The position numbers and the translations under genes were made by a program. From a virus, in IMG/VR virus record IMGVR_UViG_3300035034_001742, positions 1 through 64,000 of that record: a DNA stretch of 64,000 bases. One strand, 5' to 3'. A model generated the notes under the pieces. The model did no database searches. It was given only the letters and a program-made list of their open reading frames with translations, and was not told where the DNA came from. Of this stretch, positions 40,223-57,311 are shown piece after piece (position 1 is the first letter of the stretch; the number at the start of each line of letters is the position of its first letter).

Positions 40223-40570
40223 ATGGATCCGAAGTTAGCAAGAGCCCTCGAGTTTTCTCAGTATCGAGAAACCCTAAACAACCAAATGCAAGCCTTAAAA
40301 TCTCAAGTAGAAGTAAAGCTCATGCATTCTATTAACGGCGGCACGTTTCGAGTATCACCTGAGTTAATTACATTTGTTGATTTATTAATAGCTAAGGGAC
40401 AGTCTGAAACTGTACTGCTTGACATCAACAATACACCTATTAAAATCGCAGACTTAGCAGATTTCAGCACAGACATCTTATCACGCTATCACGAAGTTAC
40501 TAACGACTATCTCACGCAATACGAAAATATTCGTAAGGCTCGCTCGGTCACCAAAATAGTAGGGAAATAA
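40223..40570 (+). CDS. Unknown 115-aa protein heading the accessory island
   Basis: 115 aa, mostly helical (MDPKLARALEFSQYRETLNN and a C-terminal YHEVTNDYLTQYENIRKA helix), no known domain. It follows the late promoter at 40185 and precedes the first glycosyltransferase by 3 nt, so it is probably co-expressed with it. It could be a structural or chaperone-type protein of the fibre region; this is not supported by any motif. Confidence 0.65.
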   Translation: MDPKLARALEFSQYRETLNNQMQALKSQVEVKLMHSINGGTFRVSPELITFVDLLIAKGQSETVLLDINNTPIKIADLADFSTDILSRYHEVTNDYLTQYENIRKARSVTKIVGK

Positions 40571-40573
40571 ACA

Positions 40574-41461
40574 ATGTCAAAGGGTGCAATGATGTTTGCA
40601 CACAACAACGAAGAAATTGACTACATCAAGATTGCATGTTTAAATGCACTAATGATACAAGCGAATCTCGATGTTGGTGTAACACTAGTAACTGATGTCG
40701 GTACATTAAAGTGGGCCAAAGAATCTCTAGGAGCCGATTATCTCGACCAGTGCTTTGAGATTATTATAAGTGAAGATCCGGACTATGTGTACAAGCAAAA
40801 CAATATTCGCGTATTTAGAGATACAGTATACACCACCAAGCATTTGCCTTTTTACAATTGCGATCACTGGAAAGCATACGAGTTATCTCCATACGACGAA
40901 ACACTGTTCATCGATGCAGACTATTTGATAATGAGCGATGCATTAAACAGATGCTGGGGTTCGGCGCACGAAGTAATGATCAACAAAGACATAAGCGAAT
41001 TGTACTTTGGTCGCACACAAGAAAATAGCACAGTGGGCAAATCGGGCATTGACACATACTGGGCAACATGTATATACTTTCAGAAGTCAGAGCTAGCAGA
41101 GCATTTGTTTTACATGGTAAAATACATTTACGACAACTATGCTTACTATCGCGACCTGTATACAACTCCTAATTCGATGTTTCGAAATGACTATGCATTC
41201 AGCATTGCAGTACACATAATGAATGGATTTAGTAACAGTGACTTAATAAAGCAATTGCCAATCCCGGCATTGTACAAATCATTTGACAATGACGATATAG
41301 TTAGCATCAATGGCGTTAATGATATTACATTGCTACTCGAAAAACCTAAGTGCCACGGCGATTATATATTGTCCAGGTTCAAGGGAATGGATGTTCATGT
41401 CATGAACAAGTGGGCAATACTTCGCAATTACGATAAGCTAAAGGAGTTATACAGTGAGTAG
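40574..41461 (+). CDS. Glycosyltransferase-like protein (DxD type) 1
   Basis: 295 aa. FIDADYLI, with the DAD at residues 114-116, is the metal/nucleotide-sugar site of GT-A-fold transferases. The preceding HWKAYELSPYDETLF corresponds to the GT8-like run-up to it. The N-terminus (GAMMFAHNNEEIDYIKIACL) resembles that of the next gene, so the two are paralogs. It overlaps that gene by 8 nt. It probably transfers a sugar from a nucleotide-sugar in the cytoplasm; substrate and acceptor unknown. The acceptor could be phage fibre or a host glycan, since the gene is adjacent to fibre genes. Confidence 0.72.
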   Translation: MSKGAMMFAHNNEEIDYIKIACLNALMIQANLDVGVTLVTDVGTLKWAKESLGADYLDQCFEIIISEDPDYVYKQNNIRVFRDTVYTTKHLPFYNCDHWKAYELSPYDETLFIDADYLIMSDALNRCWGSAHEVMINKDISELYFGRTQENSTVGKSGIDTYWATCIYFQKSELAEHLFYMVKYIYDNYAYYRDLYTTPNSMFRNDYAFSIAVHIMNGFSNSDLIKQLPIPALYKSFDNDDIVSINGVNDITLLLEKPKCHGDYILSRFKGMDVHVMNKWAILRNYDKLKELYSE

Positions 41462-42311
41462 AGGATATTTAGTCATTGCACAAAACTCCGGTGACATAGA
41501 CTACATACGTCAAGCATACGCATTAGCACTAAGCATAAAGAACACACAGCGCATAAACAGCTTTGCCATTGCAGTTGCAGAGAATGATATAGATCTCATT
41601 CCTAAGGACTATTTAGACGTGTTTGATCACGTGGTCGAGATACCTTATACCGATCATGCCGAAGGCGAACAGTGGAAGATACAAAATAAATGGAAGTATT
41701 ACTACATGACTCCATTTGATGAAACTGTTATACTTGACACCGACATGATATTCACCGCTGATGTTAGTTTTTGGTGGGACCACCTTGCAGAACGCGAAGC
41801 TTGGTTCACTACCAATGTTAAAACTTTCCGTGGTACTGATGTCACTTCTGATCACTACCGAAAAACATTTACCAGCAACCATTTGCCTAACGTATACACT
41901 GCATTTGCTTATTTTAGAAAAACTAAAAAAGTAGCAGAGTTATTTGAGTTGACCGAAACCATATTCCACAACTGGGAAAAGTTCTACTTTGAATTTTTAG
42001 ACGACACCAAGCCAGACTGGTTATCGGGTGATGTGGCGTATGCACTTGCAATAAAGTTACTTGGATACGAACACGAATTCACACAACCGTTGAAAAATAT
42101 ACCAACGTTTGTACACATGAAAACAAAATTACAAGACCACAACAACGACATACCATCGGAAGAGTGGACCAAGCACTTGCCGTCGTATTTTAAAACAAAT
42201 GGCGACTTAAAAATAGGTAACTTTAATCAGTTCTATCCTGTTCACTATCACGACAAAGCTTGGTTAACTGATCTAGTTGTTAAACGGTTAGAGGACATTT
42301 ATTATGGATAA
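41454..42311 (+). CDS. Glycosyltransferase-like protein (DxD type) 2
   Basis: 285 aa, paralog of the preceding gene: AQNSGDIDYIRQAYALALSI at the start, and KYYYMTPFDETVILDTDMIF with DTD at residues 95-97. Later histidines (HYHDKAW near the C-terminus) would complete a GT-A metal site. The start is GTG at 41454, with AAGGAG upstream, inside the end of the previous gene. The tandem pair suggests two sugar transfers in sequence, or a duplication with changed specificity. Confidence 0.72.
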   Translation: MSRGYLVIAQNSGDIDYIRQAYALALSIKNTQRINSFAIAVAENDIDLIPKDYLDVFDHVVEIPYTDHAEGEQWKIQNKWKYYYMTPFDETVILDTDMIFTADVSFWWDHLAEREAWFTTNVKTFRGTDVTSDHYRKTFTSNHLPNVYTAFAYFRKTKKVAELFELTETIFHNWEKFYFEFLDDTKPDWLSGDVAYALAIKLLGYEHEFTQPLKNIPTFVHMKTKLQDHNNDIPSEEWTKHLPSYFKTNGDLKIGNFNQFYPVHYHDKAWLTDLVVKRLEDIYYG

Positions 42312-42891
42312 GAAAATGTATGTGTTCTTTAACGAAGATGGTGATATAATGTCTGTATCACCTCGGTCTACAACTGATTTAGAAAATATACAGTCTGCTG
42401 AGCTACCGCGTCAGCAAGCAATTGATTTTTTGTCCGGTACAAAGAACATGTATCGTTATGCAATTGTAGCAGATAAGGAAACCGGTAACTTCAAGTGTGT
42501 ATCAAAAGAAACTGAAGTAAGTCAGCTCAACACAGTAGGTAGGTATTTAACAGAAGTCACCTCCGAGTTTTACGACAAACACGACATAATGATTGAACAT
42601 GATGTCCGTCGTAAAAAGTTGCGCATTACCATGTCAGGCACAGGCATCAGTAAGGCTGATACCAAGCGTAACAAAACACTTATATCGAACCATCGTAAAT
42701 TATCTTTTTATTTTACTTTATTTGGTGATCCAAATATGTTAATATGCGGTTTCGATGTAACTGTCAAGGAACTTGTAGACGGTGACGTATGTGTGAGTTT
42801 TGAGCACCTTGATAGTGAGCTAAATAATGCGACACTATTTACAAAGCAGATCCTAAGCAAGTATCATTATAGGAAGTTACAATACACATGA
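42304..42891 (+). CDS. Unknown 195-aa protein
   Basis: Not recognised. MYVFFNEDGDIMSVSP near the start looks like a beta-hairpin of a small N-terminal domain. The rest is mixed, with a basic stretch about residue 105-135 (HDVRRKKLRI, then KADTKRNKTLISNHRKL). No signal peptide or membrane helix. It overlaps both neighbours by a few bases (8 and 4 nt), so it is part of the glycosyltransferase run. I recall similar proteins beside fibre genes of marine phages but know no function. Confidence 0.65.
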   Translation: MDKKMYVFFNEDGDIMSVSPRSTTDLENIQSAELPRQQAIDFLSGTKNMYRYAIVADKETGNFKCVSKETEVSQLNTVGRYLTEVTSEFYDKHDIMIEHDVRRKKLRITMSGTGISKADTKRNKTLISNHRKLSFYFTLFGDPNMLICGFDVTVKELVDGDVCVSFEHLDSELNNATLFTKQILSKYHYRKLQYT

Positions 42892-43874
42892 CAACAGAAT
42901 TAAATCAATTAGATGTTATTTTTATCAGCTTTGATGAAGATAATTGCGAACAGAACTGGGCAGACTTGTTGACCAAGGTTCCATGGGCACAGCGCGTTCA
43001 TGGTGTAGAAGGCTCCGATGCGGCACACAAAGCCGCGGCACAGTTAAGCAGTACAGATAGATTCATAAGCGTGGACGCAGACAACATTGTTGATATTAAA
43101 TTCTTTGATCAGAAGATTGACTTCGAGAACGAAAAGTTCAAAGACAAAGTTGTTAGCTGGACTGCAAAGAATCACATCAACGGCTTGGAGTACGGCAACG
43201 GTGGACTAAAATGTTGGCCAGTTGAATATGTAATGAACATGCGCACACACGAAGCTGCCGAGGATGATAAGAACCAAGTTGATTTCTGTTGGGAAGACAC
43301 CTACGTACAAATGAACAATCGTTTTTGTACAACATTTCCAAATGGATCGCCACGCCAAGCATTTAGAGCAGGGTTTAGAGAAGGTGTTAAAATGTCTCTG
43401 GACCAAGGCAAGAAAGTAAACTACAAAGGCATAAAGAATAACATTTGGTGGGGCAACTACAATCGTCTTGTTATATGGGCCACTGTAGGAGCCGATGCCG
43501 CTAATGGCGACTGGGCAGTTTACGGTGCAAGACTTGGCTTTTACATGACCAATCTCACCGACTGGGACTTTGTGAATGTAAGAGACTTTGCATATCTTAA
43601 TAAGCTGTTTGCAGAAACAGTAGGTCCGCAGTTTGCAAGCAAAGACACCCATAGTTTTTATTGTCATAACTCCAAGTACTCGTGGAGCAAAGTAAAACTC
43701 GACGAAGAAATAAAACGGTTAGGCATGATTATACGCAAGGAATCAGGCATGGAAATTGCTGAACTTGACTGTACGCAAAGCCGTTTCTTTAAGGGCGCAT
43801 ATATAAACTTACCACGTACAGGATCCTACGTAACCGAAGATGAAATGAATCAACTTCGTGATTTAAACAGCTAA
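42888..43874 (+). CDS. Glycosyltransferase-like protein 3
   Basis: 328 aa. Residues 1-70 read LDVIFISFDEDNCEQNWADLL, ...GVEGSDAAHKAAAQL, FISVDADNIV with a DAD at 63-65, the layout of a GT-A nucleotide-sugar site. The part around 150-200 is rich in aromatic residues (NIWWGNYNRLVIWATVGADA). It differs clearly from the two DxD proteins before it, so it is a separate family. It ends 20 nt before the first radical SAM gene. Donor and acceptor are unknown. Confidence 0.62.
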   Translation: MTTELNQLDVIFISFDEDNCEQNWADLLTKVPWAQRVHGVEGSDAAHKAAAQLSSTDRFISVDADNIVDIKFFDQKIDFENEKFKDKVVSWTAKNHINGLEYGNGGLKCWPVEYVMNMRTHEAAEDDKNQVDFCWEDTYVQMNNRFCTTFPNGSPRQAFRAGFREGVKMSLDQGKKVNYKGIKNNIWWGNYNRLVIWATVGADAANGDWAVYGARLGFYMTNLTDWDFVNVRDFAYLNKLFAETVGPQFASKDTHSFYCHNSKYSWSKVKLDEEIKRLGMIIRKESGMEIAELDCTQSRFFKGAYINLPRTGSYVTEDEMNQLRDLNS

Positions 43875-43893
43875 CACAACACAGGATACAAAT

Positions 43894-45291
43894 ATGTCAG
43901 GAGAAATGGAACGACTTGCAAAAGTCAAGACCAAACTGGATGCGATTAGCCCCTCATTCTGTACTGCAAAGTGGTTACAAGTAACATTGCATCTGCAAAA
44001 TGGATTTAATCACAGTTGCCACCATCCTAAAACACACAAGATTCCGTTAGAAGAAATAGCTAATAATCCTAGTGCATTGCACAATACTCAGTACAAAAAG
44101 CAACAACGTAAGATGATGATCGAAGGCAAGCGCCCCGATGAGTGTCAGTATTGCTGGAATGTAGAAGACTTACCAGGCGACCAATTATCAGATAGGTATA
44201 TCAAGTCAGGCGACATTACCTGGGCCAATGATAAAATAGAAGAAATTGCACAAAGCGATTGGCGAGATGATGTTACACCCACTTATGTAGAAGTAAGCTT
44301 TTCAAATCATTGTAACTTCAAGTGTTCGTACTGTTCTCCAGTACATTCGTCGCAGTGGGCAAAGGAAGCCGCAGAGTTCGGACCGTACCCAACTAGTCAA
44401 AAATTCAACGGTATCGAATACCTTAAGCAAACTGGACAAATGCCAATACCGCACGATGAGTATAATCCGTATGTCGAGGCATTTTGGGAATGGTGGCCCG
44501 AGCTAAGTAAAACGCTTAGAGTATTCCGTGTAACAGGCGGTGACCCGCTAATGGAAAAGAATACGTTTAAGGTAATGGACAGAATTATTGCTGATCCTAT
44601 TCCTGCATTAGAGCTCAGCGTAAACACTAACGGTGGCGTATCAGATAGTCGCATACGCAAGTATGTCGAGAAAGCCAAGCAAGTTGAGAAAGTAATAAGA
44701 TTAAATCGTGTGTACACCAGTGTCGACACACATGGCAAGCAAGCCGAGTACATCAGAAGCGGACTTGAATACGATCGCTGGCTGTCGAACATAGATTACA
44801 TGATGACCGAGCTACCACTTACCAAGTTTACAATTATGTGTACTGCAAATATCTTTAGTGTGGTCAACTTTAAACTGCTACTCGAAGACGTATACAAACT
44901 GAAGTTAAAGCATTACAGTAAACATCGTAAGGTTGCTATCACAATTGATACTTCTATATTGCGCTGGCCTGGTCACCAACGTGCAAACATATTACCACCT
45001 GAGTATGCAGACATGATGCAACCAGCTCTTGATTATATGCGAGCACATGAAGAAGGCAACGAAGAAAACAATATACCGCATTATCAAGGCTTCTTTGATT
45101 TTGAAATTGCAAAGCTAGAACGTTTTATTGAATTCATCAAGGCGCCAAAGCATGCAAACGAAGACTACGATCTAGCAACAACACGAAAAGACTTTGTTAA
45201 GTTTGTCGATGAGCACGATCGCAGACGTGGCACAGACTTTAAAGGAACCTTTCCGGAGTTGCTTGATTTTTATAATACACACAAGGAGTAG
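43894..45291 (+). CDS. Radical SAM protein 1, N-terminal twitch-like domain with CHH variant
   Basis: 465 aa. The radical SAM cluster motif CNFKCSYC is at residues 140-147, and VTGGDPLM (the GGE-like SAM-binding motif) follows about 85 residues later. Upstream of the core is a cysteine domain: FC at 22-23, W27, SCHH at 41-44 and CQYCW near 85, the arrangement of twitch/SPASM auxiliary-cluster sites but placed N-terminally. Where most of its relatives here have CC, this one has C-H-H. Family members use SAM-derived radicals to modify peptides or sugars; no substrate is evident. It is one of six such proteins in the island and ends 3 nt before the first ITEK-type transferase. Confidence 0.88.
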   Translation: MSGEMERLAKVKTKLDAISPSFCTAKWLQVTLHLQNGFNHSCHHPKTHKIPLEEIANNPSALHNTQYKKQQRKMMIEGKRPDECQYCWNVEDLPGDQLSDRYIKSGDITWANDKIEEIAQSDWRDDVTPTYVEVSFSNHCNFKCSYCSPVHSSQWAKEAAEFGPYPTSQKFNGIEYLKQTGQMPIPHDEYNPYVEAFWEWWPELSKTLRVFRVTGGDPLMEKNTFKVMDRIIADPIPALELSVNTNGGVSDSRIRKYVEKAKQVEKVIRLNRVYTSVDTHGKQAEYIRSGLEYDRWLSNIDYMMTELPLTKFTIMCTANIFSVVNFKLLLEDVYKLKLKHYSKHRKVAITIDTSILRWPGHQRANILPPEYADMMQPALDYMRAHEEGNEENNIPHYQGFFDFEIAKLERFIEFIKAPKHANEDYDLATTRKDFVKFVDEHDRRRGTDFKGTFPELLDFYNTHKE

Positions 45292-45294
45292 ACA

Positions 45295-46338
45295 GTGATT
45301 GACATTGTTGACGGTGGTTTGCCAGAGCATTGGGAAATTACAAAAGAATATAATCAGACAATTTATTATATCACAAAACAAATTAACACTCGTTTCCCAC
45401 GCGATAGAAATTTGCTTATTAGCACACAATGGGAATGGATGATACCGCCTGATAAAAATTTAAACAGTCCACGGTACGAAAAGCAATACGATAATGTGTT
45501 TATACTGTCCACTCTCGATACTGTTCCGCGTGACCGTGTAGAAGAATACGAAGCAAAGGGTATTAATGTTTATTACATAGGCAATACTACCGGCCGTGGT
45601 TATTTTAGTTTTCATAGCATAAACAGCAAGCATTTTAAACAGTATACCAACCAAGAACTGGAACCGGTGTCATTTAAAAACAAGTTTTTATGTTACAACA
45701 GAAATCCACATGAACACAGGCTCAAACTTGTAAACGAGATTGTAAAACGTGGACTAGACAAACAAGGCGTAGTTACGCTAGGCGACAACTTTTACACTCA
45801 CAATGTCACTGGCAAGTATCCACTTGCACATGCTGCCGCACCTCGTTCAGTTGAGGAAAATATTAACCAACTAATAACGCAAGGCGATGCCGAAGCGTTA
45901 AATGAGTTGACAATACCGCATGATACCTATACACTGGGTAACATGGAAATATGGCAAAATACGTTTTTGGTTGTTGTAACTGAGACATCAGTTGAGTCTA
46001 ACATGCACATAACAGAAAAGATACTCAAGCCAATGATTGGCAAGCGTCCGTATATAGTGTTAGGTGATGTCGGACTTGAAGATCACTTACAGACGTGCGG
46101 ATTTAAGTCGTTTGGTAAATATTTCGACACAGCGTTTGACAAACTACCTTCCTATAGCATGGAAAAGTATGTTGCCATATGCGAAATTATCGAACAAATT
46201 ACAAACAAGTCCGAGCAAGAGTTGCAAGAACTGTACAACGACATGCGACCAACCATTGAACACAATCACGAAAATGTTAAATGGTTCCAGGATCATAATC
46301 AATTAAAGATACAAAACAAAGGACTTTTTAGGTTATAA
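45295..46338 (+). CDS. Putative transferase with ITEK motif, paralog 1
   Basis: 347 aa. FKNKFLCYNRNPHEHRLKLV in the middle, followed by VTETSVESNMHITEKILKPM, RPYIVLGDVGLEDHLQTCGF and KSFGKYFD, is shared with three other proteins here (53097, 54813, 59872). The layout, with TE..(F/H)ITEK..K near the C-terminus, is that of exostosin/fucosyltransferase-like GT-B proteins, where this part binds the nucleotide-sugar. Start GTG at 45295 with a perfect AAGGAG site. It sits between two radical SAM genes with 2-4 nt gaps, implying a joint pathway. Sugar unknown. Confidence 0.68.
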   Translation: MIDIVDGGLPEHWEITKEYNQTIYYITKQINTRFPRDRNLLISTQWEWMIPPDKNLNSPRYEKQYDNVFILSTLDTVPRDRVEEYEAKGINVYYIGNTTGRGYFSFHSINSKHFKQYTNQELEPVSFKNKFLCYNRNPHEHRLKLVNEIVKRGLDKQGVVTLGDNFYTHNVTGKYPLAHAAAPRSVEENINQLITQGDAEALNELTIPHDTYTLGNMEIWQNTFLVVVTETSVESNMHITEKILKPMIGKRPYIVLGDVGLEDHLQTCGFKSFGKYFDTAFDKLPSYSMEKYVAICEIIEQITNKSEQELQELYNDMRPTIEHNHENVKWFQDHNQLKIQNKGLFRL

Positions 46339-46339
46339 T

Positions 46340-48004
46340 ATGGCTAAAAAACAAGGCGAGTCGTACAGAGAATATAGAGATAGAGTTGTAGACCCTATCT
46401 CCGGGGCCTTCTGTGGTGCCAAATGGTACAATGCAACCATATGGTTAAACAACGGCACAACTACTAGCTGTCACCACCCACCCGCGCACAAAATAGTCGA
46501 CTTCGAAAACGGAGAGACATATGAAGACCTTAAAGCCAATCCTTCATTGATACACAACACCACATACAAGAAGAATGTGCGCAAGCAAATGCTCATGGGC
46601 GAACGTCCTAAGGAATGCGAGTATTGCTGGAAAATTGAAGACTTAGGTCAAGACAAAATTTCCGATCGCGTGTTCAAGAGTGTTATATACACCGATGAAG
46701 AGCTTGAAGAATGCCGTGACGTACATGCCGAAACAGAAGATGTCGATTTAAAGACATTAGAAATTGCGTTCGATTCAAACTGCAACTTTGCATGTTCATA
46801 TTGTAATGCAAGTTTCTCAACCACATGGCAAAAGGATATTCGTCAGAATGGCGCATACCAAAACCTACACAGCGATGGCGCAAGAGCATTCCAGCAAGAC
46901 GGTGGGTGGACCAAGCAGTTCAAGAAGAACGAAGCCAATCCGTACACAGAAGCTTTTTGGGACTGGTGGCCTAAACTTAGTAAATCACTGGATCAGTTGC
47001 GTGTAACAGGCGGCGATCCTCCTATGAGCCCAGACTTCTGGAAGCTTGTAGACTGGTGGAAAGACAACGGGCAAGATTTAGACATGAAGTTCGCAGTAAA
47101 CAGTAACATGGGCCATAAAGGCAAGACCATGGATAAGTTTGTTGAGTGTTCGCACATTTTTAAAGAATTTATTGTTTACACTTCAAACGAGTCCACGTAT
47201 GCGCAAGCAGAGTACATTCGCGATGGTCTAGAATGGTCCTACTGGAAAGAGTCAGTTAATAGATTACTTCAGGAAGGTAGTGTACAGGAGTTGCATGTGA
47301 TGATGACAATCAACAGTTTATGTTTGTTTAGCATTACTGACTTCATGGACTATTGCAACACACTCAAGCGCAAGTACGGACACATGTATGGTGTTTGTTC
47401 TGTTAATATATTGCGTTTTCCAAGTTTCCAAGCACCGGGCACATTGCCTGCAGAGATACGCCACGAACGTGCCGACCATATAGAAAGATGGTTAGCTGAT
47501 AATCGTGATAATGGTGTTATGCATGACATGGAAATAGACGGTGTTGACCGATTGGTAGAGTATTTGCGTAGTGTAGATGAGCCACATAGGTACACCAGCT
47601 CAATTGAGTCGCGCCACAAGGACTTTAAATCGTTTTACAAGCAGTACGACGAACGCCGAGGAAAGGACTTCGTGTCTGCATTTCCTGAATTAGCCGAGTG
47701 GTATAACAGCTTACCTTATCAAGAGTCAATACCAATTTTGCAATTGTACGACGGCGACTCAAGCAAAGGAACAGCAGATCGCAGAGAGCTTGAAGTTCGT
47801 GCCAAGACAGACGAGTGGAAAAACCAAAATACTAACCCCGGTGCCAAGGAGTACAAGGAGAAGAAGTATAATGTTGTAGACTTATCGAGCCTAGGAATTA
47901 CCGAGCTGAGAAAAGTCTACAAGCAAGTGTCAGTGGAGGCAATGAATGTCGACTGGGAACGATCGGAGCTCATTGAAGAAATACTTAGGGAACAGGAAAA
48001 GTAA
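46340..48004 (+). CDS. Radical SAM protein 2, N-terminal twitch-like domain with CHH variant
   Basis: 554 aa, the longest of the six. Cluster motif CNFACSYC at residues 148-155, then VTGGDPPM. The N-terminal domain has FCGAKWYNATIWLNNG, SCHHPPAHK and CEYCWKIED, so it is the close partner of radical SAM protein 1 with the same C-H-H replacement. The last 100 residues (about 450-554) form an extra helical tail (ELEVRAKTDEWKNQN..., ITELRKVYKQVSVEAMNVDW) that the others lack and that could bind a partner or DNA (SAP-like spacing). TAATG coupling to the next radical SAM gene. Confidence 0.88.
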   Translation: MAKKQGESYREYRDRVVDPISGAFCGAKWYNATIWLNNGTTTSCHHPPAHKIVDFENGETYEDLKANPSLIHNTTYKKNVRKQMLMGERPKECEYCWKIEDLGQDKISDRVFKSVIYTDEELEECRDVHAETEDVDLKTLEIAFDSNCNFACSYCNASFSTTWQKDIRQNGAYQNLHSDGARAFQQDGGWTKQFKKNEANPYTEAFWDWWPKLSKSLDQLRVTGGDPPMSPDFWKLVDWWKDNGQDLDMKFAVNSNMGHKGKTMDKFVECSHIFKEFIVYTSNESTYAQAEYIRDGLEWSYWKESVNRLLQEGSVQELHVMMTINSLCLFSITDFMDYCNTLKRKYGHMYGVCSVNILRFPSFQAPGTLPAEIRHERADHIERWLADNRDNGVMHDMEIDGVDRLVEYLRSVDEPHRYTSSIESRHKDFKSFYKQYDERRGKDFVSAFPELAEWYNSLPYQESIPILQLYDGDSSKGTADRRELEVRAKTDEWKNQNTNPGAKEYKEKKYNVVDLSSLGITELRKVYKQVSVEAMNVDWERSELIEEILREQEK

Positions 48005-49215
48005 TGGATGAATCCAATAATCATTTTTGCATGGCGCCATGGCTTCATTTACACATGTGGCCAAATGGTAACGTGTATCCATGTTGTACTGCACCGTCAG
48101 AGGATCCATTTGGCAATACCAAGACTGAATCATTAGAAGAAGTATGGAATGGAGATCGTATGCGAGAGCTACGATCTAACATGCTCTCCGATAAGCCAAG
48201 CAAGTCATGTGAACGTTGTTACAAACTGGAGGAGCATGGTTCCTTTAGTATGCGCAAAGACATGAACCAAAAATTCAAGCACCGCTATAACGATACCAAA
48301 AAGACACACCAAGATGGGCATCATCCCGAAATGAAAATGCGATACATGGACATTCGGTTCAGCAACATTTGCAACTTCAAGTGTCGCAGTTGTGGGCCTG
48401 AGTTGAGCTCGCTGTGGTACGACGATCAGGTTATATTACATGGCAAGCCGGATGGCAAGCGAATACAGCGTCCGTTTAAAACTACCACTGAGCTATGGCA
48501 AAACCTTGAAAAGATTCTTCCTTATGTTGAAGAAGTTTACTTTGCAGGTGGCGAGCCTCTTGTGTCCGTTGAGCATTATGAGATACTAGATTACTTAGTC
48601 GAGCATAATAGAACTGATGTGCGTTTGGTATACAACACCAACTTCAGTAAACTGCGTTTCAAAGGCAAAGACGTATTTGATTATTGGAAAAAGTTTGCAG
48701 ACGTTAATGTTGGTGCTAGCTTGGATGCCATGGGAGAACGCGCCGAGTACATGCGTGCAGGAACAGTGTGGGAAGACATAGAAATAAACAGACAGCGTTT
48801 GCAAAAAGAATGCCCGCATGTTTCTTTCTTTATTGCCGCTACTGTATCTCTTTACAACGGCTGGCACTTGCCCGACTTTTACTTGGACTGGCTAAACAAA
48901 GGGTTTTCGCATTGGGAATCAATCAATATAAATATATTGCATTACCCAGCACACCTCAGCTTAACTGTGTTACCTGCAGAAATCAAAGAACAGATAACTG
49001 CAAAGTATAAAAGAGCAATTGCACGCATACCACCTGAGTACAGAGAATTTAATAGACTGGCAAGCGTGGTTGACTACATGAACAGTCGTGATGACAGTCA
49101 CATGATTCCAGAATTCTTCAAGCGCAATGAAACACTTGACGACATCAGAAATGAAGACTTTATTACTGCATTTCCTGAACTAAAGCCCATGATGCAATAC
49201 AAGGAAACAAAATGA
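48004..49215 (+). CDS. Radical SAM protein 3, N-terminal twitch-like domain
   Basis: 403 aa. CNFKCRSC at residues 123-130, FAGGEPLV about 60 residues later. N-terminal cysteines: FCMAPWLHLHMWPNG, CC at 40-41 region, then CERCYKLEE, with W-N-G-D-R-M-R-E-L-R-S-N-M between, the standard twitch pattern. C-terminus ends DIRNEDFITAFPELKPM, a pattern (R.EDF...FPEL) repeated in the other five, so the paralogs arose by duplication. Overlaps on both sides. Confidence 0.9.
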   Translation: MDESNNHFCMAPWLHLHMWPNGNVYPCCTAPSEDPFGNTKTESLEEVWNGDRMRELRSNMLSDKPSKSCERCYKLEEHGSFSMRKDMNQKFKHRYNDTKKTHQDGHHPEMKMRYMDIRFSNICNFKCRSCGPELSSLWYDDQVILHGKPDGKRIQRPFKTTTELWQNLEKILPYVEEVYFAGGEPLVSVEHYEILDYLVEHNRTDVRLVYNTNFSKLRFKGKDVFDYWKKFADVNVGASLDAMGERAEYMRAGTVWEDIEINRQRLQKECPHVSFFIAATVSLYNGWHLPDFYLDWLNKGFSHWESININILHYPAHLSLTVLPAEIKEQITAKYKRAIARIPPEYREFNRLASVVDYMNSRDDSHMIPEFFKRNETLDDIRNEDFITAFPELKPMMQYKETK

Positions 49216-49325
49216 AAAACGACAGACATGTTGTACTATACAATCGGTATCTAATCTGTTACTACTTGTACATTCCAACATACCGCATTGTAGATGATCA
49301 GTTTTGGGACGATGCTAGTAAATGA
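49212..49325 (+). CDS. Tyrosine-rich 37-aa peptide between radical SAM genes
   Basis: ATG at 49212 overlaps the stop of radical SAM gene 3 (ATGA), and its own TGA overlaps the ATG of radical SAM gene 4, so it is fitted tightly into the run. The peptide has eight Tyr: VLYNRYLICYYLYIPTYRIV, then DDQFWDDASK. Its spacing recalls the small proteins with a Y-x-YYLY...D..(F/Y)D pattern that resemble the start of NAD-type DNA ligases and are common in T4-like phages. A precursor-peptide role for the radical SAM enzymes is possible but unproven. Confidence 0.6.
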   Translation: MKNDRHVVLYNRYLICYYLYIPTYRIVDDQFWDDASK

Positions 49326-50539
49326 GCAAAGCCAAAACTAACTTCTGCGTGCTGCCTTGGGTACACCTAAGTGCCGATACAGATGGCACCTTTAGTCCGT
49401 GCTGTCTGTATCAAGGTGCCATCAAACGCGACGATGGTAAGAAGCACATAACCGAAGGTGTTACTGTTAGTGACGTGTGGAACGGCAAATACATGCAGGA
49501 TCTGCGTACCCAGTTTATTAACGATGAGAGGCCGCATGAGTGTCGTTACTGCTGGGACTTAGAAGACGGTGGCATGAAAAGCAAGCGAATAAACGACTTA
49601 GAGCGGTTCCATGTACCAGAACAAGCCTATGAGGCTGTTACCTCGGAAAAACCCATCTATTTCGACTTAAAACTAGGCAGTATATGCAATCTAAAGTGCC
49701 GTATATGCACGTTTGAGAACAGTATCAAGTGGGCCAAAGATGCCAAAGCGTTAAAGCTTGCAGACGACAGTCTTGTGGATTACTACCTTGCAAACAGTCG
49801 GTGGGCAGAAGACTATCCTGAATTTTGGCAAGACCTATTGCAATACACAGATGATGTTGTGCAAATAGACTTTGCAGGTGGTGACCCATTACTGATCAAG
49901 GAGCATTACCGTTTCTTAGAAATGTTAACTGAGCGTACAGATGTATCTAACATAGCCATTCACTATAATACCAACGGCACCATACTGCCCTCGGATCATG
50001 TACTACAAAATATATGGCCGCAGTTCAAGCGTGTCGAGATAATGCTAAGCATAGATGCAGTAGGCAAGAAGTTTGAATATCAGCGACATGGAGCAAAGTG
50101 GCCAACTGTGGATAAGAATGTTGCAAAGTTTGATGCATTCGACAATACTGTTTTACAGGTTTGCCATACAGTAAATATACTAAACGTTCTTGACATTTGC
50201 GACTTCGTGGTATGGGCAGAAGATAAGAACCTTGAAATCTATTTTAACATGTTGTATCATCCGGATTATTACAATATTAAAAACTTGCCGCTGTCGGCAA
50301 AACAAGTTGTAACTAACCGAGTTAAACACATGCTAAATACACATACGTTTAAATACAAGTCGGCCAGTAAGTCACTTGAAGAAATACGCGACTATGTTGG
50401 TACACCAGGTGGGACCGGCGAGTTAATTGCATTTAATGATATTACACACAAACTTGATGATTTTAGAAATGAAGACTTTGCATCAACTTTCCCGGAGTTA
50501 AAAGAGCACCTATATGGAGAAGCCAAACAAACTACCTGA
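49322..50539 (+). CDS. Radical SAM protein 4, N-terminal twitch-like domain
   Basis: 405 aa. CNLKCRIC at residues 122-129 and FAGGDPLL. N-terminal pattern FCVLPWVHLSADTDG, then CC, then CRYCWDLED, with VWNGKYMQDLRTQF between. The C-terminus has FRNEDFASTFPELKEH. A 26-nt overlap with the next gene indicates translational coupling. Function as for its paralogs: SAM-radical chemistry, substrate unknown. Confidence 0.9.
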   Translation: MSKAKTNFCVLPWVHLSADTDGTFSPCCLYQGAIKRDDGKKHITEGVTVSDVWNGKYMQDLRTQFINDERPHECRYCWDLEDGGMKSKRINDLERFHVPEQAYEAVTSEKPIYFDLKLGSICNLKCRICTFENSIKWAKDAKALKLADDSLVDYYLANSRWAEDYPEFWQDLLQYTDDVVQIDFAGGDPLLIKEHYRFLEMLTERTDVSNIAIHYNTNGTILPSDHVLQNIWPQFKRVEIMLSIDAVGKKFEYQRHGAKWPTVDKNVAKFDAFDNTVLQVCHTVNILNVLDICDFVVWAEDKNLEIYFNMLYHPDYYNIKNLPLSAKQVVTNRVKHMLNTHTFKYKSASKSLEEIRDYVGTPGGTGELIAFNDITHKLDDFRNEDFASTFPELKEHLYGEAKQTT

Positions 50540-51842
50540 TGTATTCTGTACGGCACCGTGGACTCACACCTATGTTAGTCCTCAAGGCGAAAGACGCCTA
50601 TGCTGTGCCAGTAGAGAAGACGCATCATTTCAACGACAGTACATAGATGCTGACACCGGAACAAAGACCGACACGTTCAATCCTGATACTTTAGTCCAGC
50701 ACTGGAACTCAGAGTACATGAAAGATATTCGCAAGCGCATAATGGCCGGTGAGAAGATATCACAATGCGAAGTGTGCAACGATCAAGTTCTCAATCTACA
50801 CACCTATCGTAACTATTTTACTCAGACTCTCTTTCCTCATCACATTGATAAAATTTACGAGAGTACATCGGAAGATGGCCACACCACACTTGAACCCGTT
50901 AGCTTCGATTATCGACTTAGCAACCGTTGCGACTTTAAATGTCGTATGTGCGGAGAGCAACTTAGCTCAAGCTGGGAAGCCGAAAAGCGAAAGCATGGCA
51001 TGTGGGATCCTAAGATTGACAAGTGGATGGCACCAGAACTACGCATTCCAATCAAAGACTTTCAAGAGAATGTGCTCGAAGATGAGCTACAACGTGCCGT
51101 AGACAACGAAACAGTTGAAGAATTATATTGGGTAGGCGGCGAACCATTGATGTGGGAGAAGCACTGGACCGTGATGCAACAACTTGTTGATACAGGTCAC
51201 TCCAAGAATGTGGTTGTGCGCTACAATACGAACCTAAACCGATTGAGTCGTAAAGATTCAAAGCTGTACGACTTGTTGCCGCATTTCAAGCGCGTTAACC
51301 TGTGCGCTAGCATAGACGGTGGTGGGCCAATAGGCGAATACATACGAACCGGATTAAACTGGACAAAATGGTTAGACAATTTCAAACAAGGACTATTCTT
51401 AAAAGAACAGTTCGGTAACGACGGCATTGTGTTCGATGTAACACTGACCATGCCCGGGTTGTTTGCCCTGCAAGACATGTTTGACTTGGCAATTGAGTTA
51501 GACGTCAAAACTTATTTAAAGATTACATTTTCGTTTGACAGTACTGTTCTCATGTCGCCCATGTCATTGCCACGCAATGTTCTTGATGGCATCATAGATG
51601 ACTTGTTGGTTCATATGACACCACGAGCAACCGATAAAACACAAGTGTACATTGACACGCTTAAAGAAATGAAGAAGCGCCCTGTATTTGAAGAGCAGTA
51701 TGACAACTATCAAGACGGCTTTCGAGAAGGACGTAAACGTTTGCTTGACATAGAAGCAATTAGAAAACAACCAATTATCATGGAAGAAATACTTTCGACC
51801 AACAGTCTTGCACTGAGTTGGTGGAATCAGGAGATACAATGA
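50514..51842 (+). CDS. Radical SAM protein 5, N-terminal twitch-like domain
   Basis: 442 aa. CDFKCRMC at residues 139-146 and WVGGEPLM. N-terminal FCTAPWTHTYVSPQG, CC, and CEVCNDQV, so the last cysteine pair lacks the aromatic seen in the others. The C-terminal part (RRPVFEEQYDNYQDGFREGRK...) is more basic than in its paralogs and lacks the R.EDF...FPEL ending, showing divergence. ATG at 50514 lies inside the previous gene; its stop overlaps the next ATG. Confidence 0.9.
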   Translation: MEKPNKLPDVFCTAPWTHTYVSPQGERRLCCASREDASFQRQYIDADTGTKTDTFNPDTLVQHWNSEYMKDIRKRIMAGEKISQCEVCNDQVLNLHTYRNYFTQTLFPHHIDKIYESTSEDGHTTLEPVSFDYRLSNRCDFKCRMCGEQLSSSWEAEKRKHGMWDPKIDKWMAPELRIPIKDFQENVLEDELQRAVDNETVEELYWVGGEPLMWEKHWTVMQQLVDTGHSKNVVVRYNTNLNRLSRKDSKLYDLLPHFKRVNLCASIDGGGPIGEYIRTGLNWTKWLDNFKQGLFLKEQFGNDGIVFDVTLTMPGLFALQDMFDLAIELDVKTYLKITFSFDSTVLMSPMSLPRNVLDGIIDDLLVHMTPRATDKTQVYIDTLKEMKKRPVFEEQYDNYQDGFREGRKRLLDIEAIRKQPIIMEEILSTNSLALSWWNQEIQ

Positions 51843-53104
51843 GCAAAGATCCAAATAAAACATTTTGTGTGCTACCGTGGATTCACTTAGCAACACATCC
51901 TATGGGGCATGTTACTCTTTGTTGTGAAGCTGACATGAACAATAATGCTAGTAGCAGTAGAGACAAGTTCGATACCATAGACGGCAAGCAACTAGAAGAA
52001 CTAAAGTATTTAGGCAAGCATGCAATAACAAAAATACACAATAGCGATTACTTTAACGAAGTGCGCAAGCAAATGTTAGAAGGCGAACGTCCTTCGGCTT
52101 GTACCAGATGTTTTGACCGCGAAGACCAAGGACTAGACAGTAAGCGATTGCTGGAACACCGTGAGTATCCCAATTATAAAATCGAAGAAGCAATCGAAAA
52201 CACAAACGACAACGGCAGTCTAAAGAAAACAGATTTCAGATTTGTTGAGTTTAGGCTGGGCAATGTGTGTAATGTAAAATGTAGAACATGTAACCCTGCT
52301 AGCTCAAACAGATGGAAAACCGATTACGAAAAACTACAAGACGGTGACTGGGATGGTGCCAAAGCAATTCCTCAGTACCGTGGAATAGATTGGAGTACAT
52401 TTGACTGGTGCGAAGACCCAGACGTTTATGAGGATATTCTTGATAAGTGTGAAAACTTAGAAAGCCTATATATAAATGGCGGTGAGCCAACACTCATTAA
52501 AGAGCATTGGACATTCCTTCAGCAACTCATTGACAAAGGATTTGCAAAGAATATTAAAGTATGGTACAGTTTGAATATGACAATGATTCCAGACATTGCA
52601 TTTGAGTTGTGGAGTCAATTTAAAGAAGTTGAAATACGCGCAAGCATAGACGATATTGAACACCGTAATACTTACATAAGACACCCGACCAAATGGAAGA
52701 ATGTGCTGAAAACTGTTGACCTATGCTTGAATAGTGACACTGTTAGAATTAAAATATTGCAAACTATAAGTGTATATAATTTCCCATACTTGAGTGAGTT
52801 TCACGATTACTGGAACAACTACAACGACCGCATAGAAATTGCACACAACTTTGTTATGTATCCTGACTTCATGGCACCCGATGTAATTCCGTTGGAAATA
52901 AGAAAGAAAATAATTGAAAAGATTATGCAATGCAATACAATGTCGCAACAACAGAAGCATGAAATACAACAATTATACGGAACAAAAGAACACGATCCCG
53001 AGAAATGGCAACTGTTTCTTAATTACACTGCTGAGCTTGACTCAATAAGACGCGAATCGTTTGATGAAACTTTTCCTGAATTTAAAGAATTAATAGATGG
53101 TTAA
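51839..53104 (+). CDS. Radical SAM protein 6, N-terminal twitch-like domain
   Basis: 421 aa from the ATG at 51839, with AGGAG upstream and ATGA overlap with the previous stop; longer TTG/GTG starts exist but lack a site. CNVKCRTC at residues 144-151, INGGEPTL later. N-terminal FCVLPWIHLATHPMG, CC, CTRCFDRED. It has the common R.ESF...FPEF ending. Last of the uninterrupted radical SAM run; the next gene overlaps by 8 nt and is an ITEK-type transferase. Confidence 0.9.
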   Translation: MSKDPNKTFCVLPWIHLATHPMGHVTLCCEADMNNNASSSRDKFDTIDGKQLEELKYLGKHAITKIHNSDYFNEVRKQMLEGERPSACTRCFDREDQGLDSKRLLEHREYPNYKIEEAIENTNDNGSLKKTDFRFVEFRLGNVCNVKCRTCNPASSNRWKTDYEKLQDGDWDGAKAIPQYRGIDWSTFDWCEDPDVYEDILDKCENLESLYINGGEPTLIKEHWTFLQQLIDKGFAKNIKVWYSLNMTMIPDIAFELWSQFKEVEIRASIDDIEHRNTYIRHPTKWKNVLKTVDLCLNSDTVRIKILQTISVYNFPYLSEFHDYWNNYNDRIEIAHNFVMYPDFMAPDVIPLEIRKKIIEKIMQCNTMSQQQKHEIQQLYGTKEHDPEKWQLFLNYTAELDSIRRESFDETFPEFKELIDG

Positions 53105-54179
53105 TTTAGTTCATAGCAGAAACAAAGACTTAAAACGTAAATCTTACCGCGGCAAAGATTCGTTATTTGGTTATCTTGATTATTATGATGTTGAGTACTC
53201 GAGTGTTTACCGACATCATGGATATCTGGTTATAGAATTAGTTAACATTTTCGAAACTGCTGACCTGCTTGATTACTTTAGCCCGTGTGAACGCGCAATG
53301 GTAGCAAGCGGTTGGTACAAATTGTTATTGTTTTATCCGAAGGAACCGGTAAGTTATCGGTTAATAAAGACATCGTTGGATGCACTAAACAATCATTTCA
53401 TACCGAATAAAAATATTATACTTGTGACAGGTGAACACGGACCTGAACTACTGCGAGAGTTTCCGTCGGATCTAACTGTTATACCGTACTTCTGGTTTGA
53501 TATGTCCACCTTGCACAGTTATAGTGGACGCACCGATATATCACATAACCCGAGCAAGAGTTTTTTGTGTTATAATGGCACAGTAAAGCTACATCGAACA
53601 CTGATGTTCGAGCAACTTCAGGACAACAAAGACGGCTATGTTAGCTACCTCAAGCGCATTTACAGCAAAGATGTTGTGCAGGATGAAATAGATAACAGTT
53701 TGCTATCAGTACATGAAAAGATAGTTGCACAGAATATATCCTATTCGTCACCTGTTGAAATTGATTTGTCTCCGAGCCAATGTATTACAAATCAGTTTAC
53801 AGACGACTTAGATTTATATCACGACACCAAATTTAGTATTGTTACTGAATCTATCTCGAGTACCGGCTCTTTGTTCATAACAGAAAAAACATTTAAAGCA
53901 ATATTATCTATGCATCCGTTTATGATTTCGGGAAGCCCAGGGCTGATTGCGTTTATGCAGTCACAAGGCTATAAAAGTTATGACTTGATGTTTGACGAAA
54001 CGTATGATAATATACGACACCTAACAGATCGCATGCGAGCCATTGTCGACCAGGTAGCTAATTGTAAATCAACAAATCCGGAATCGGTGTTTGATATTGC
54101 ACATTTTAACCGAGAGAGATGCCTAACCACTGACTATGGCTCTCGACTAAACAGTTTACTTGAGCTCATCGACAAATGA
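53097..54179 (+). CDS. Putative transferase with ITEK motif, paralog 2
   Basis: 360 aa. SKSFLCYNGTVKLHRTLMFE in the middle, then TESISSTGSLFITEKTFKAI, MISGSPGLIAFMQSQGY and KSYDLMFDETYDNI at the C-terminus, the same order as in the 45295 protein and with the added DE.YD typical of this group. The N-terminal half is unlike its paralog, as would suit different acceptors. Overlaps both neighbours (8 and 4 nt). GT-B-like sugar transfer is inferred, not shown. Confidence 0.68.
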   Translation: MVNLVHSRNKDLKRKSYRGKDSLFGYLDYYDVEYSSVYRHHGYLVIELVNIFETADLLDYFSPCERAMVASGWYKLLLFYPKEPVSYRLIKTSLDALNNHFIPNKNIILVTGEHGPELLREFPSDLTVIPYFWFDMSTLHSYSGRTDISHNPSKSFLCYNGTVKLHRTLMFEQLQDNKDGYVSYLKRIYSKDVVQDEIDNSLLSVHEKIVAQNISYSSPVEIDLSPSQCITNQFTDDLDLYHDTKFSIVTESISSTGSLFITEKTFKAILSMHPFMISGSPGLIAFMQSQGYKSYDLMFDETYDNIRHLTDRMRAIVDQVANCKSTNPESVFDIAHFNRERCLTTDYGSRLNSLLELIDK

Positions 54180-54820
54180 AAATACTATTACTGGTCCCGG
54201 ATTTTAGCGATCCTTTCGTATCGCATATGATGAGTAGATTATCCAGCAATGATGATAACTTAGATATTAAAACATTTAGTTATGAGTTCGATGTAAGCAT
54301 GTATGATATTATATATATATTTCCCGGAATGATCCACGGACATATTACAGATAGCATTATTAAGAAAAAAGTAGGACCACTCGTGCTTGGGTTATTATCA
54401 CACCATAACAGTGTGCTGTTATTGCACCATCATTACTCCTGTTTTTATCATGCAGTTACGCTAACTTTTCGTGTAGTTACTGAAAATTTATTTATTAATC
54501 CTTTTGGTATGCTGGTGTTGTTACACAAATATCCGGTAATAGAAAACTATCAATTCGGCAACGGTGACCACGATACCTTCATTTTTGCGAATAACAGTGC
54601 TATAATCTGCTTGGTATCAAGGGTTAATGTTGAAGAGCATGACAAAAAACTAATGCCTGTTATACCGCTTAACGAGTATGTATCGACAAACTTTGAGTTT
54701 GATATTTTCTTTAATGAAAGTTATATATCCTTACCTGTCTTAAGAGAGTTCGGTGATTCATTTTGGAAAATGAATTTTTATCAAATATGGGAGAGCTTTT
54801 ATCATAAAACTTATGGATGA
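54176..54820 (+). CDS. Unknown 214-aa protein, possibly a degenerate relative of its neighbours
   Basis: 214 aa. It starts MKILLLVPDFSDPFVSHMMS, a Rossmann-like first strand, and is rich in His (SHHNSVLLLHHHYSCFYHAV near residue 80). No TEK motif or DxD. Ends FNESYISLPVLREFGDSFWK, where the FNESY spacing recalls the (D)E-S-Y of the ITEK group. It may be a divergent or truncated transferase, but I cannot assign a function. ATGA and 8-nt overlaps on its two sides. Confidence 0.6.
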   Translation: MKILLLVPDFSDPFVSHMMSRLSSNDDNLDIKTFSYEFDVSMYDIIYIFPGMIHGHITDSIIKKKVGPLVLGLLSHHNSVLLLHHHYSCFYHAVTLTFRVVTENLFINPFGMLVLLHKYPVIENYQFGNGDHDTFIFANNSAIICLVSRVNVEEHDKKLMPVIPLNEYVSTNFEFDIFFNESYISLPVLREFGDSFWKMNFYQIWESFYHKTYG

Positions 54821-55955
54821 GCATTCGTACAAGACAGGACGTACATTTTACGATACTGTGTTTTACTATGACTACAAATATGCAAATATGCATGTTAAGC
54901 CAGTCGATTGCAGATATGTAGACTATTCAATAGGGATCATACATTATATTGTTTCGCACTGGGGGTATTTCGGCGACAAGCCGGCTGACATAACAGATGA
55001 AATGATTCGATATGCCAAGCAAGGAAAGGTTAACATTCTATTTGATTTTTCATTCGAGGGAGAATTATTACCACTACAAAATTTCTTAGATCATATGAGT
55101 GGGTTGGGATTGCCAGAAAATTCTTACAGTGCAATCACATCTGCAGGGTATCTCGACGGGTTTTGTCTGCCGGATAAACGCATGATACATTCACCTATGT
55201 TTGAAGTAAAGGCGCTAAAGTGCATGCGATATGAAATTGATAAGCCCATACACAGTTTCGGATTAACGGAACGTCGTAAATTTATAATGCTGAATGCAAG
55301 ACCGAGGCCAGGTCGAATTATACTTTCGTATTTACTATATGCCGCCAATGTTCTCGATAAAGGCTATTGCTCTGTGCCAGCAGAAACAGGAAACGTTGTG
55401 GAAACTTACGATTTTTTTGAAACAATAGAAGTAGAAAAAAAGAGAGGGTTTAGTAACATCAATCCTGCCACAGTGAGTAAAATGCATGCACAGCTACCCT
55501 TTGTGGTCGACCAAGTTAATTACAACAATTCAATAATAATCAATGATACTATATTCTCAGATATATATGACCTAGTAGACTTTGCATTGATTACCGAAAC
55601 CATGGCCGATGAATACCCGGGTAAAGTTTTTATAACAGAAAAAGTACTTAAAGCAATTGCAAATAAAGTTCCGTTTATTGTGCTCGGAGATATACACACA
55701 TTAAAATATTTAAAACAGTTAGGATATAAAACGTTTGATTTTTTAATTGACGAAAGCTATGACTCGATGCCGTATGTCGATAGAGTAAATACAATAGTTG
55801 CAGAAGTAACACGATTATGTGATGTAGATTTTAACAAGTACAGTACCCAGATTAAAGCAGTGACAGAACACAATTATAGTGTGCTGTCCAATGCAGACAA
55901 CTACACAAAGAGAATATCTAATGTAATAGATTTTCTTAGCAAACGCCCTACATAA
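54813..55955 (+). CDS. Putative transferase with ITEK motif, paralog 3
   Basis: 380 aa. RRKFIMLNARPRPGRIILSY stands at the place of the FLCYN..PH.HR block of paralogs 1 and 2. The C-terminus follows with ITETMADEYPGKVFITEKVL, FIVLGDIHTLKYLKQLGY and KTFDFLIDESYDSM. The N-terminal half is again unrelated to the others. After it comes a 141-bp gap with a possible 23-aa frame and a late box, so this is the end of the first half of the island. Confidence 0.68.
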   Translation: MDEHSYKTGRTFYDTVFYYDYKYANMHVKPVDCRYVDYSIGIIHYIVSHWGYFGDKPADITDEMIRYAKQGKVNILFDFSFEGELLPLQNFLDHMSGLGLPENSYSAITSAGYLDGFCLPDKRMIHSPMFEVKALKCMRYEIDKPIHSFGLTERRKFIMLNARPRPGRIILSYLLYAANVLDKGYCSVPAETGNVVETYDFFETIEVEKKRGFSNINPATVSKMHAQLPFVVDQVNYNNSIIINDTIFSDIYDLVDFALITETMADEYPGKVFITEKVLKAIANKVPFIVLGDIHTLKYLKQLGYKTFDFLIDESYDSMPYVDRVNTIVAEVTRLCDVDFNKYSTQIKAVTEHNYSVLSNADNYTKRISNVIDFLSKRPT

Positions 55956-56096: not shown

Positions 56097-57311
56097 ATGA
56101 AAGTTGGATTTATAGGAATTGGAAAATTGGGTGAGCCATGTGCTTACCAAATGTCAAAACACTACGATGTAATAGGTTATGATTCGTTTGCAACCCAATC
56201 ACGCTTTCCACAAGCAGATTCAGTACAAGAATGCATGCAAGGCAGAGATATAATTTTTATTGCTGTGCCTACGCCACATGACCCAGCATACGATGGCAAA
56301 GAACCTACCACTCACTTAGAGCCAAAGGATTTCAATTATTCTATAGTTGAAGAAGTATTAAATGAAGTCGCTAAACACGCATCTAACAAACAATTAGTTG
56401 TTCTCATCAGCACAGTGTTACCTGGTACTACTAGGTCAGTTTTTCAGCCATATTTAGGCGGATTTAGGTTCGTGTATAACCCTTATTTGATAGCAATGGG
56501 GACTGTAGAATTTGATATGGTAAACCCAGAGATGATCATTATAGGAACCGAAGACGGATCGTTAACTGGCGATGCGCAAGCACTCATTGACTTTTACAAA
56601 CCTATAATGGAAAACAACCCGCGCATCGAAGTAGGCACGTGGGATGAAGCCGAGTCAATCAAAATTTTCTACAATACCTGGATTAGTTCTAAGTTAGCAT
56701 TGGTTAACATGATGCAAGACGTAGCCGAAAAGAATGGCAACATCAATGTCGATGTGGTTACATCTGCATTGTCTAAATCAACATTTCGCATAACCGGACC
56801 CAAGTACATGACTGCCGGACTAGGCGACGGCGGTGCGTGTCACCCTAGAGATAATATTGCACTGCGCCACATGGCCGGTCAACTGGACCTCGGATATGAT
56901 TTGTTCGATGCAATCATGGTGGCCCGCGAACAGCAAGCCAGCAACATGGCCAAGAGCTTGGTTTCATACGGTTTGCCAGTTGTTATAGTGGGCAAGTCAT
57001 ACAAACCTGGTGTTCAGTATTCAGCAGGATCAATCAGTATCTTAACAGGTGAGTATGTAAAAAAACATGCAGGCGAAGTGTATTATATAGATCACGACAA
57101 ATGCGATGACGATCGAGACTGTGCAACATTTGACGAAAGTAAACCAATGACATACTTAATGGCACACTCCGAGGCAATAACGTACGATAACAATAGTGAT
57201 AACGCTGTGATCAGTCCAGTTGCAGGATCTGTTATTGTTGATCCGTGGCGCAAGCATCCGCCGGTCAACGGCGTAAAGGTTGTACACTACGGAAATACCA
57301 GACGTGTATAA
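56097..57311 (+). CDS. UDP-glucose/GDP-mannose 6-dehydrogenase family protein
   Basis: 404 aa. An NAD-binding GIGKLG (residues 7-12) opens a Rossmann fold. IFIAVPTPHDP near 63 and STVLPGTTRSV near 115 are family phrases. The catalytic cysteine is C248 in GDGGACHPRDN, equivalent to GGxCFPKD. These enzymes oxidise the C6 alcohol of a nucleotide-sugar to the acid (UDP-glucuronate or GDP-mannuronate type), in two NAD-dependent steps. The substrate cannot be told. It would supply an acidic sugar for the transferases upstream. The middle and C-terminal domains appear complete. Confidence 0.85.
   Translation: MKVGFIGIGKLGEPCAYQMSKHYDVIGYDSFATQSRFPQADSVQECMQGRDIIFIAVPTPHDPAYDGKEPTTHLEPKDFNYSIVEEVLNEVAKHASNKQLVVLISTVLPGTTRSVFQPYLGGFRFVYNPYLIAMGTVEFDMVNPEMIIIGTEDGSLTGDAQALIDFYKPIMENNPRIEVGTWDEAESIKIFYNTWISSKLALVNMMQDVAEKNGNINVDVVTSALSKSTFRITGPKYMTAGLGDGGACHPRDNIALRHMAGQLDLGYDLFDAIMVAREQQASNMAKSLVSYGLPVVIVGKSYKPGVQYSAGSISILTGEYVKKHAGEVYYIDHDKCDDDRDCATFDESKPMTYLMAHSEAITYDNNSDNAVISPVAGSVIVDPWRKHPPVNGVKVVHYGNTRRV

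Follow-up and report, generated by a model that had tools for sequence, protein, structure and literature searches.

Radical S-adenosylmethionine (SAM) genes have been found in sets in several phages. As described in passages of PMC7029224, the host recognition cluster of pelagimyophages combines radical SAM cassettes, tail fibres and GT8 transferases in one variable island. The Campylobacter phages CP220 and CPt10 carry 11-12 radical SAM genes per genome (PMC2853527). Twelve are present in TARA_ERS488813_N000010, a T4-like genome of marine origin that is compared here by radical SAM gene number (PMC5332604). Here we analyse a stretch of 64,000 nucleotides (the window) of the 79.5-kb IMG/VR virus record IMGVR_UViG_3300035034_001742, from a large aquatic phage, in which six radical SAM genes with an N-terminal twitch domain (N-twitch) follow tail-fibre and glycosyltransferase (GT) genes. 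This gene order is kept in many giant phages, which suggests, short of proof, that they decorate their fibres with an unusual sugar of their own making. Neither the enzyme family nor the occurrence of such sets within host-recognition islands of phages is new, and the three papers do not support the remark of an earlier, sequence-only reading that no comparable phage system was known to have been described. The fixed cassette, its positional enzyme lineages, the cassette-free site of phage PA5oct and the link to Bdellovibrionota were not found in the open-access papers searched.

All six proteins score above the curated cut-off of the NCBIfam model NF033640 (N_Twi_rSAM, 'twitch domain-containing radical SAM protein'; 305-427 bits, cut-off 170 bits), with matches spanning nearly the whole 398-position profile. 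The family is known, but apparently without an assigned reaction in NCBIfam or the open-access papers searched. The N-terminal domain comprises 70-100 residues with four cysteines and matches the Pfam SPASM domain (PF13186) in four of the six proteins, one of them below the cut-off, always ahead of the Radical_SAM domain; the N-terminal order noted from sequence is thus confirmed. A profile of the six aligns this segment weakly with the C-terminal twitch of BtrN, whose domain order is the reverse. In the alignment of the six proteins C9, C28, C69, C72, C123, C127 and C130 are invariant together with GG(E/D)P (numbering of RSb1, in which the N-terminal spacing C-x18-C-x40-CxxC precedes the CxxxCxxC core). 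In a set of relatives drawn from independent viral loci, 98/98 RSa and 90-91 of 92 RSb proteins retain the four N-terminal cysteines, and 196/196 retain CxxxCxxC and the two glycines of the SAM motif. Loss of cluster cysteines in homologues, named earlier as a result that would refute the proposal, is therefore not observed, and near-invariance across 196 relatives excludes chance. The six proteins keep all predicted ligands for the SAM cluster and one auxiliary cluster. They are paralogues with an N-terminal cysteine domain, as had been proposed, and all belong to NF033640, but the set is not homogeneous: it divides into the subfamilies RSa (genes at 43894 and 46340) and RSb (the other four). 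Here the six lie in one run within a fibre and transferase cassette, interrupted, as stated before, by one transferase-like gene and one open reading frame (ORF) of 37 amino acids (aa). RSa2 has a C-terminal extension of about 90 aa without counterpart in the other five; the sixth ORF is listed with a TTG start at 51818, and ATG at 51839 is equally good.

To compare gene order, loci were collected with the RSa1 protein as query and near-identical loci were merged, giving 55 groups. The main order is TFn, TFi, TFg, s5, GT1, GT3, c14 and GT4, then RSa and RSb genes (Table 1), and it holds in all 32 independent viral locus groups in which five or more elements can be scored. The genes thus do not scatter independently, and the linkage to fibre and sugar genes suspected from the window is a shared one. 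TFg, s5, GT1, GT4 and a radical SAM gene are all present in 31 of the 55 groups, while TFg-s5, s5-GT1 and GT1-GT3 are neighbours in 30-31 groups. Because these loci had been selected by a radical SAM protein, the search was repeated from GT4 (14 loci, near-duplicates not merged). TFg-s5-GT1-GT3 stands upstream in 13/13 loci that extend far enough, and N-twitch radical SAM genes lie downstream in 12 of the 13 with downstream sequence. In the exception, phage L189, GT4 is followed by another transferase-like gene and then by genes apparently unrelated to the cassette. Thus the fibre and transferase core is constant, while the radical SAM run is usual but optional. In the ORF layout of the window, genes within 40223-55955 mostly overlap or lie a few bases apart, which is consistent with a single transcript.

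Ancient duplicates that are retained in order are expected for enzymes with differing jobs. Where a locus has two RSa and three RSb genes, the tree sorts the paralogues by position and not by phage, with 9 changes of position label compared to 34.8 when labels are shuffled. The first five radical SAM genes of the window represent the lineages a1, a2, b1, b2 and b3, and the sixth falls elsewhere. As the five sort into positional lineages common to phages, they probably catalyse distinct steps, in line with the multistep pathway put forward earlier. The T4-like pelagimyophages differ here, since their island is nonsyntenic according to the passages of PMC7029224, whereas our loci have a fixed order and an orthologous radical SAM series; those passages name no N-twitch family, and the likeness is one of described gene content. 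The fixed order of the five lineages also makes it very improbable that the enzymes belong to unrelated host metabolism or to chemistry of defence, such as viperin-like small molecules, and simply accumulated in a variable region. A weak viperin similarity and further copies scattered elsewhere in jumbo genomes would fit this explanation (8 to 16 NF033640 matches at E <= 0.001, some below the cut-off, in each of the 262-328 kb contigs checked), but scores of at most 32 bits, compared to a cut-off of 180 for the viperin model, led us to reject a viperin-like function.

The fibre genes were compared with those of the isolated jumbo phage PA5oct, in which a giant virion gene is followed by homologues of TFn, TFi and TFg, as in the window. 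The PA5oct record marks all three homologues as detected by mass spectrometry (gp357 and gp360 by electrospray ionization tandem mass spectrometry, ESI-MS/MS). In contrast to the environmental relatives, in which the cassette directly follows the fibre set, PA5oct has no s5, GT or N-twitch gene after its fibre genes. Since it holds only TFn, TFi and TFg of these elements, the fibre set can function without the enzymes. The C-terminal region of TFi is Peptidase_G2-like (PF11962, E 3.6e-5, below the cut-off), and the tail lysozyme of the viral record resembles lysozymes of PA5oct and RaK2-type jumbo phages. By position, the 3416-aa protein encoded at 26907-37157 is the counterpart of the giant PA5oct virion protein.

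The transferases themselves suggest sugar transfer by the core. The glycogenin-1 match of GT3 covers profile positions 3-110, with D97 invariant, and the DxD motif of GT4 is invariant or nearly so in the family alignment. The structural matches of GT4 are mostly glycosyltransferases, with that of the PBCV-1 capsid in first place, but are weak throughout (E at best 1.4e-3, template modelling (TM) score 0.2-0.4, and 0.22-0.33 for the best). The small protein s5 weakly matches a tail assembly chaperone (E 0.046). The best explanation of the island is that it forms the fibre-modification part of a host-recognition region. We give somewhat less than an even chance to a fixed glycan core on the tail fibre, with tailoring by radical SAM enzymes that form a variable set. 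GT1, GT3 and GT4 would begin a short glycan on one of the fibre proteins, TFg being the likeliest, and lengthen it. Each N-twitch enzyme, with one reaction, may then oxidise, dehydrate, epimerise or otherwise alter unactivated C-H positions, either in the fibre glycan or in the nucleotide sugars from which it is made; the dehydrogenase, epimerase and oxygenases encoded downstream would work alongside. TFg as carrier, sugar as substrate and the order of reactions are what we infer from gene content and order. With a constant transferase core and a variable radical SAM and tailoring end, the decoration could change under selection by host receptors or defences.

The fold of the enzymes does not decide between sugar and peptide substrates. 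The RSa1 model is confident (predicted local distance difference test (pLDDT) 93.8), and solved structures match it only in part. Its nearest folds, with TM about 0.3-0.4, include the peptide maturases SkfB, SuiB and anSME and the sugar enzymes BlsE and AprD4. Characterised SPASM/twitch enzymes mostly act on peptides, and the first Foldseek match in the PDB is SkfB, a maturase of ribosomally synthesized and post-translationally modified peptides (RiPPs). Together with the two Asp/Asn beta-hydroxylase-like genes downstream, this would fit enzymes that modify side chains directly, whether in a fibre protein or in some small peptide, through RiPP-like crosslinks, epimerisation or as beta-hydroxylation partners. 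We consider this clearly unlikely. The six proteins score far below the cut-offs of RiPP maturase models, and the Pfam scan of the six found no leader-binding domain. No conserved precursor peptide lies beside the enzymes, as the 37-aa ORF is the sole inserted peptide and was rejected as a RiPP precursor for want of a conserved relative in other loci. Moreover, the gene company consists mainly of transferases in phages and of glycan-type genes in bacteria.

Bacterial relatives come mainly from Bdellovibrionota. The genome scan gave four matches, all in metagenome-assembled genomes and three of them Bdellovibrionota; scans with the RSb2 protein and a first genome scan with the RSb1 protein gave no matches. 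At E <= 1e-50, NF033640 was found in 74 of 241 Bdellovibrionota genomes compared to 1 of 190 from Alphaproteobacteria. The family is thus chromosomal in Bdellovibrionota and not phage-specific. Phage and bacterial RSa proteins share 40-57% identity and are interleaved in the tree (27 state changes), in which many long branches give no direction of transfer. In one Bdellovibrionota genome, G195, a chromosomal contig carries TFg-s5-GT1-GT3-c14-GT4-RSb-RSb without TFn and TFi, adjoining genes read by eye as rnhB, rplS, trmD, rimM and pheST; G195 is alone in having GT1 among the 241 genomes. One such case suggests transfer of the module as a unit that begins with TFg. In the Bdellovibrionota locus L149 (4651-16647), nine N-twitch genes are clustered beside obgE- and rpmA-like genes, and one of their proteins is 57% identical to phage RSa.

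We then compared the neighbourhoods of 20 bacterial regions with those of 20 controls, most of them taken from these same genomes. Relatives of GT4 occur near the bacterial copies in 7 regions and the MT31 family in 5, compared to none in the controls; among general glycan markers, GT2 was found in 6/20 versus 0/20 and carbamoyltransferase in 2/20 versus 0/20. Owing to the modest enrichment of these general markers, a role in bacterial polysaccharide pathways is suggestive only. Bacterial RSa relatives adjoin carbamoyltransferases, an ABC-2 exporter and GT genes, as in polysaccharide-type loci, and the phage cassette might likewise remodel an envelope glycan of the host (lipopolysaccharide or capsule) while infecting it, perhaps so that competing phages are kept out or progeny are not trapped. 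Its proximity to fibre genes would then arise because both belong to a host-recognition island. The nucleotide-sugar dehydrogenase and epimerase genes downstream fit this explanation, and passages of PMC7029224 propose such a role for the GT8 genes of the pelagimyophage cluster. However, fixed adjacency and order with fibre genes, and what looks like co-transcription with structural genes, speak for virion assembly rather than early remodelling of the host, the bacterial module has retained TFg and s5, and no polymerase, flippase or exporter could be recognised in those window genes that were scanned. We thus regard envelope remodelling as somewhat unlikely. In four Bdellovibrionota loci (L139, L140, L141, L143) and the phage loci L007-L012, GT4 is directly followed by the MT31 family, with other radical SAM families nearby (RSd, f98, f50); the one MT31 protein checked gave no match in Pfam.

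Several observations weigh against modification of the fibre by the cassette. TFg occurs without the enzymes in PA5oct, and phage L189 has the fibre and transferase genes with no radical SAM gene within 8 kb. The G195 module is a single case near a contig end of a draft genome, where misassembly is possible. Most bacterial copies lack TFg, which therefore cannot be a universal substrate, and the RSa1 fold leaves the substrate class undecided, since peptide and sugar enzymes are both among its nearest folds. The fuller proposal, that an ordered radical SAM series with a permuted N-terminal auxiliary-cluster domain makes a displayed tail-fibre glycan, is exchanged with Bdellovibrionota and alters surface chemistry through its variable end, is advanced only as a tentative possibility. 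The constant arrangement beside a transferase core and a fibre protein gives the N-twitch family a concrete substrate hypothesis. If fibre glycosylation is correct, phages make glycan chemistry that is unusually elaborate for viruses, and giant phages may need such a glycan to recognise their receptors. The gene pool common to phages and Bdellovibrionota also hints at the hosts of some of these phages.

Isolated Vibrio phages with family members offer test material. KVP40 and K566 encode N-twitch proteins with all four N-terminal cysteines and CxxxCxxC, like those of the window, and RSa1 matches viral models, among them KVP40 Q6WHP4 (TM 0.56/0.77), better than solved structures. The two phages differ in having no GT4 in their genomes and no GT1, GT3 or TFg in the stretches inspected, and the KVP40 copies lie below the NF033640 cut-off. 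A tblastn search with GT1 and GT4 against isolated phages gave no matches. The radical SAM genes of Campylobacter phages were rejected as direct relatives, as the one protein checked, from phage CC_R7, is without the N-terminal twitch domain.

Table 1. Coordinates of the cassette and neighbouring features in the window
Feature	Position	Strand	Evidence
TFn, virion protein, first of three fibre-region genes	37292..37960	+	phrog_11259 E 8e-41; PA5oct homologue gp357 ESI-MS/MS
TFi, tail-fibre-like virion protein	37963..39267	+	37% identical to PA5oct virion structural protein gp359
TFg, fibre-region protein, proposed modification carrier	39270..40148	+	family alignment with PA5oct gp360 (ESI-MS/MS) and bacterial copy in L147
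s5, 115 aa, possible fibre-assembly chaperone	40223..40570	+	in 33/55 groups; adjoins TFg and GT1 in 31 each
GT1, GT8-like transferase with DxD	40574..41461	+	D114, D116 invariant; weak glycogenin match E 0.13
GT3, glycogenin-like (GT8) glycosyltransferase	41454..42311	+	profile vs glycogenin-1, E 1.6e-8
c14-position protein	42304..42891	+	same position as c14 in other loci; no family match
GT4, DxD protein, GT-A-like fold	42888..43874	+	AlphaFold2 pLDDT 91.9; structural matches mostly glycosyltransferases
RSa1, N-twitch radical SAM	43894..45291	+	NF033640 338 bits; model pLDDT 93.8
Transferase-like, 347 aa	45295..46338	+	between RSa1 and RSa2; aligned with 53097, 54813, 59857
RSa2, N-twitch radical SAM	46340..48004	+	NF033640 305 bits
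RSb1, N-twitch radical SAM	48004..49215	+	NF033640 427 bits; SPASM E 5.6e-14, residues 9-73
37-aa ORF	49212..49325	+	not conserved; no convincing relative in other loci, best tblastn E 0.13
RSb2, N-twitch radical SAM	49322..50539	+	NF033640 365 bits
RSb3, N-twitch radical SAM	50514..51842	+	NF033640 319 bits
Sixth N-twitch radical SAM (RSb family)	51839..53104	+	NF033640 364 bits; outside five positional lineages in tree
Transferase-like	53097..54179	+	family f19; aligned with 45295, 54813, 59857
Transferase-like	54813..55955	+	aligned with 45295, 53097, 59857
Nucleotide-sugar dehydrogenase family	56097..57311	+	PF00984/PF03721; TIGR03026 147 bits, below cut-off 190
Asp/Asn beta-hydroxylase-like oxygenase	57681..58145	+	PF05118 E 1.3e-7
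Second Asp/Asn beta-hydroxylase-like oxygenase	58507..58983	+	PF05118 E 9e-7
NAD-dependent epimerase/dehydratase	58980..59885	+	PF01370 E 9e-43
Transferase-like	59857..60831	+	aligned with 45295, 53097, 54813

The four transferase-like proteins share invariant R, E and E-K positions in their alignment. A motif-based suspicion that they are GT10 fucosyltransferases was dropped, as no PDB or Pfam relative was found, and we leave them unnamed. In a second locus type GT7 transferases lie upstream of RSa; here the phage families f15 and f20 (e.g. L019 7109-8530) have GT7 galactosyltransferase domains directly upstream of RSa, and one of two GT7 proteins checked is fused to a laminin-G-like domain. 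The loci of jumbo relatives also hold carbamoyltransferase, epimerase and cytidylyltransferase-like genes.

In five jumbo contigs (L102, L103, L104, L105, L106) the GT4 domain is C-terminal in large repeat proteins with a pattern such as 'DYSNFDFSWHPD...YIFPSQWQRDGGT.Y'. Some repeats give weak matches to the GT4 profile (L106 domains 639-721 and 769-823) and may thus be degenerate GT-A halves. Tandem N-twitch fusions in a single frame occur in phage L006 (9968-12466, 832 aa) and in a Bdellovibrionota genome (G104:C28 4820-7672, frame of 1004 aa).

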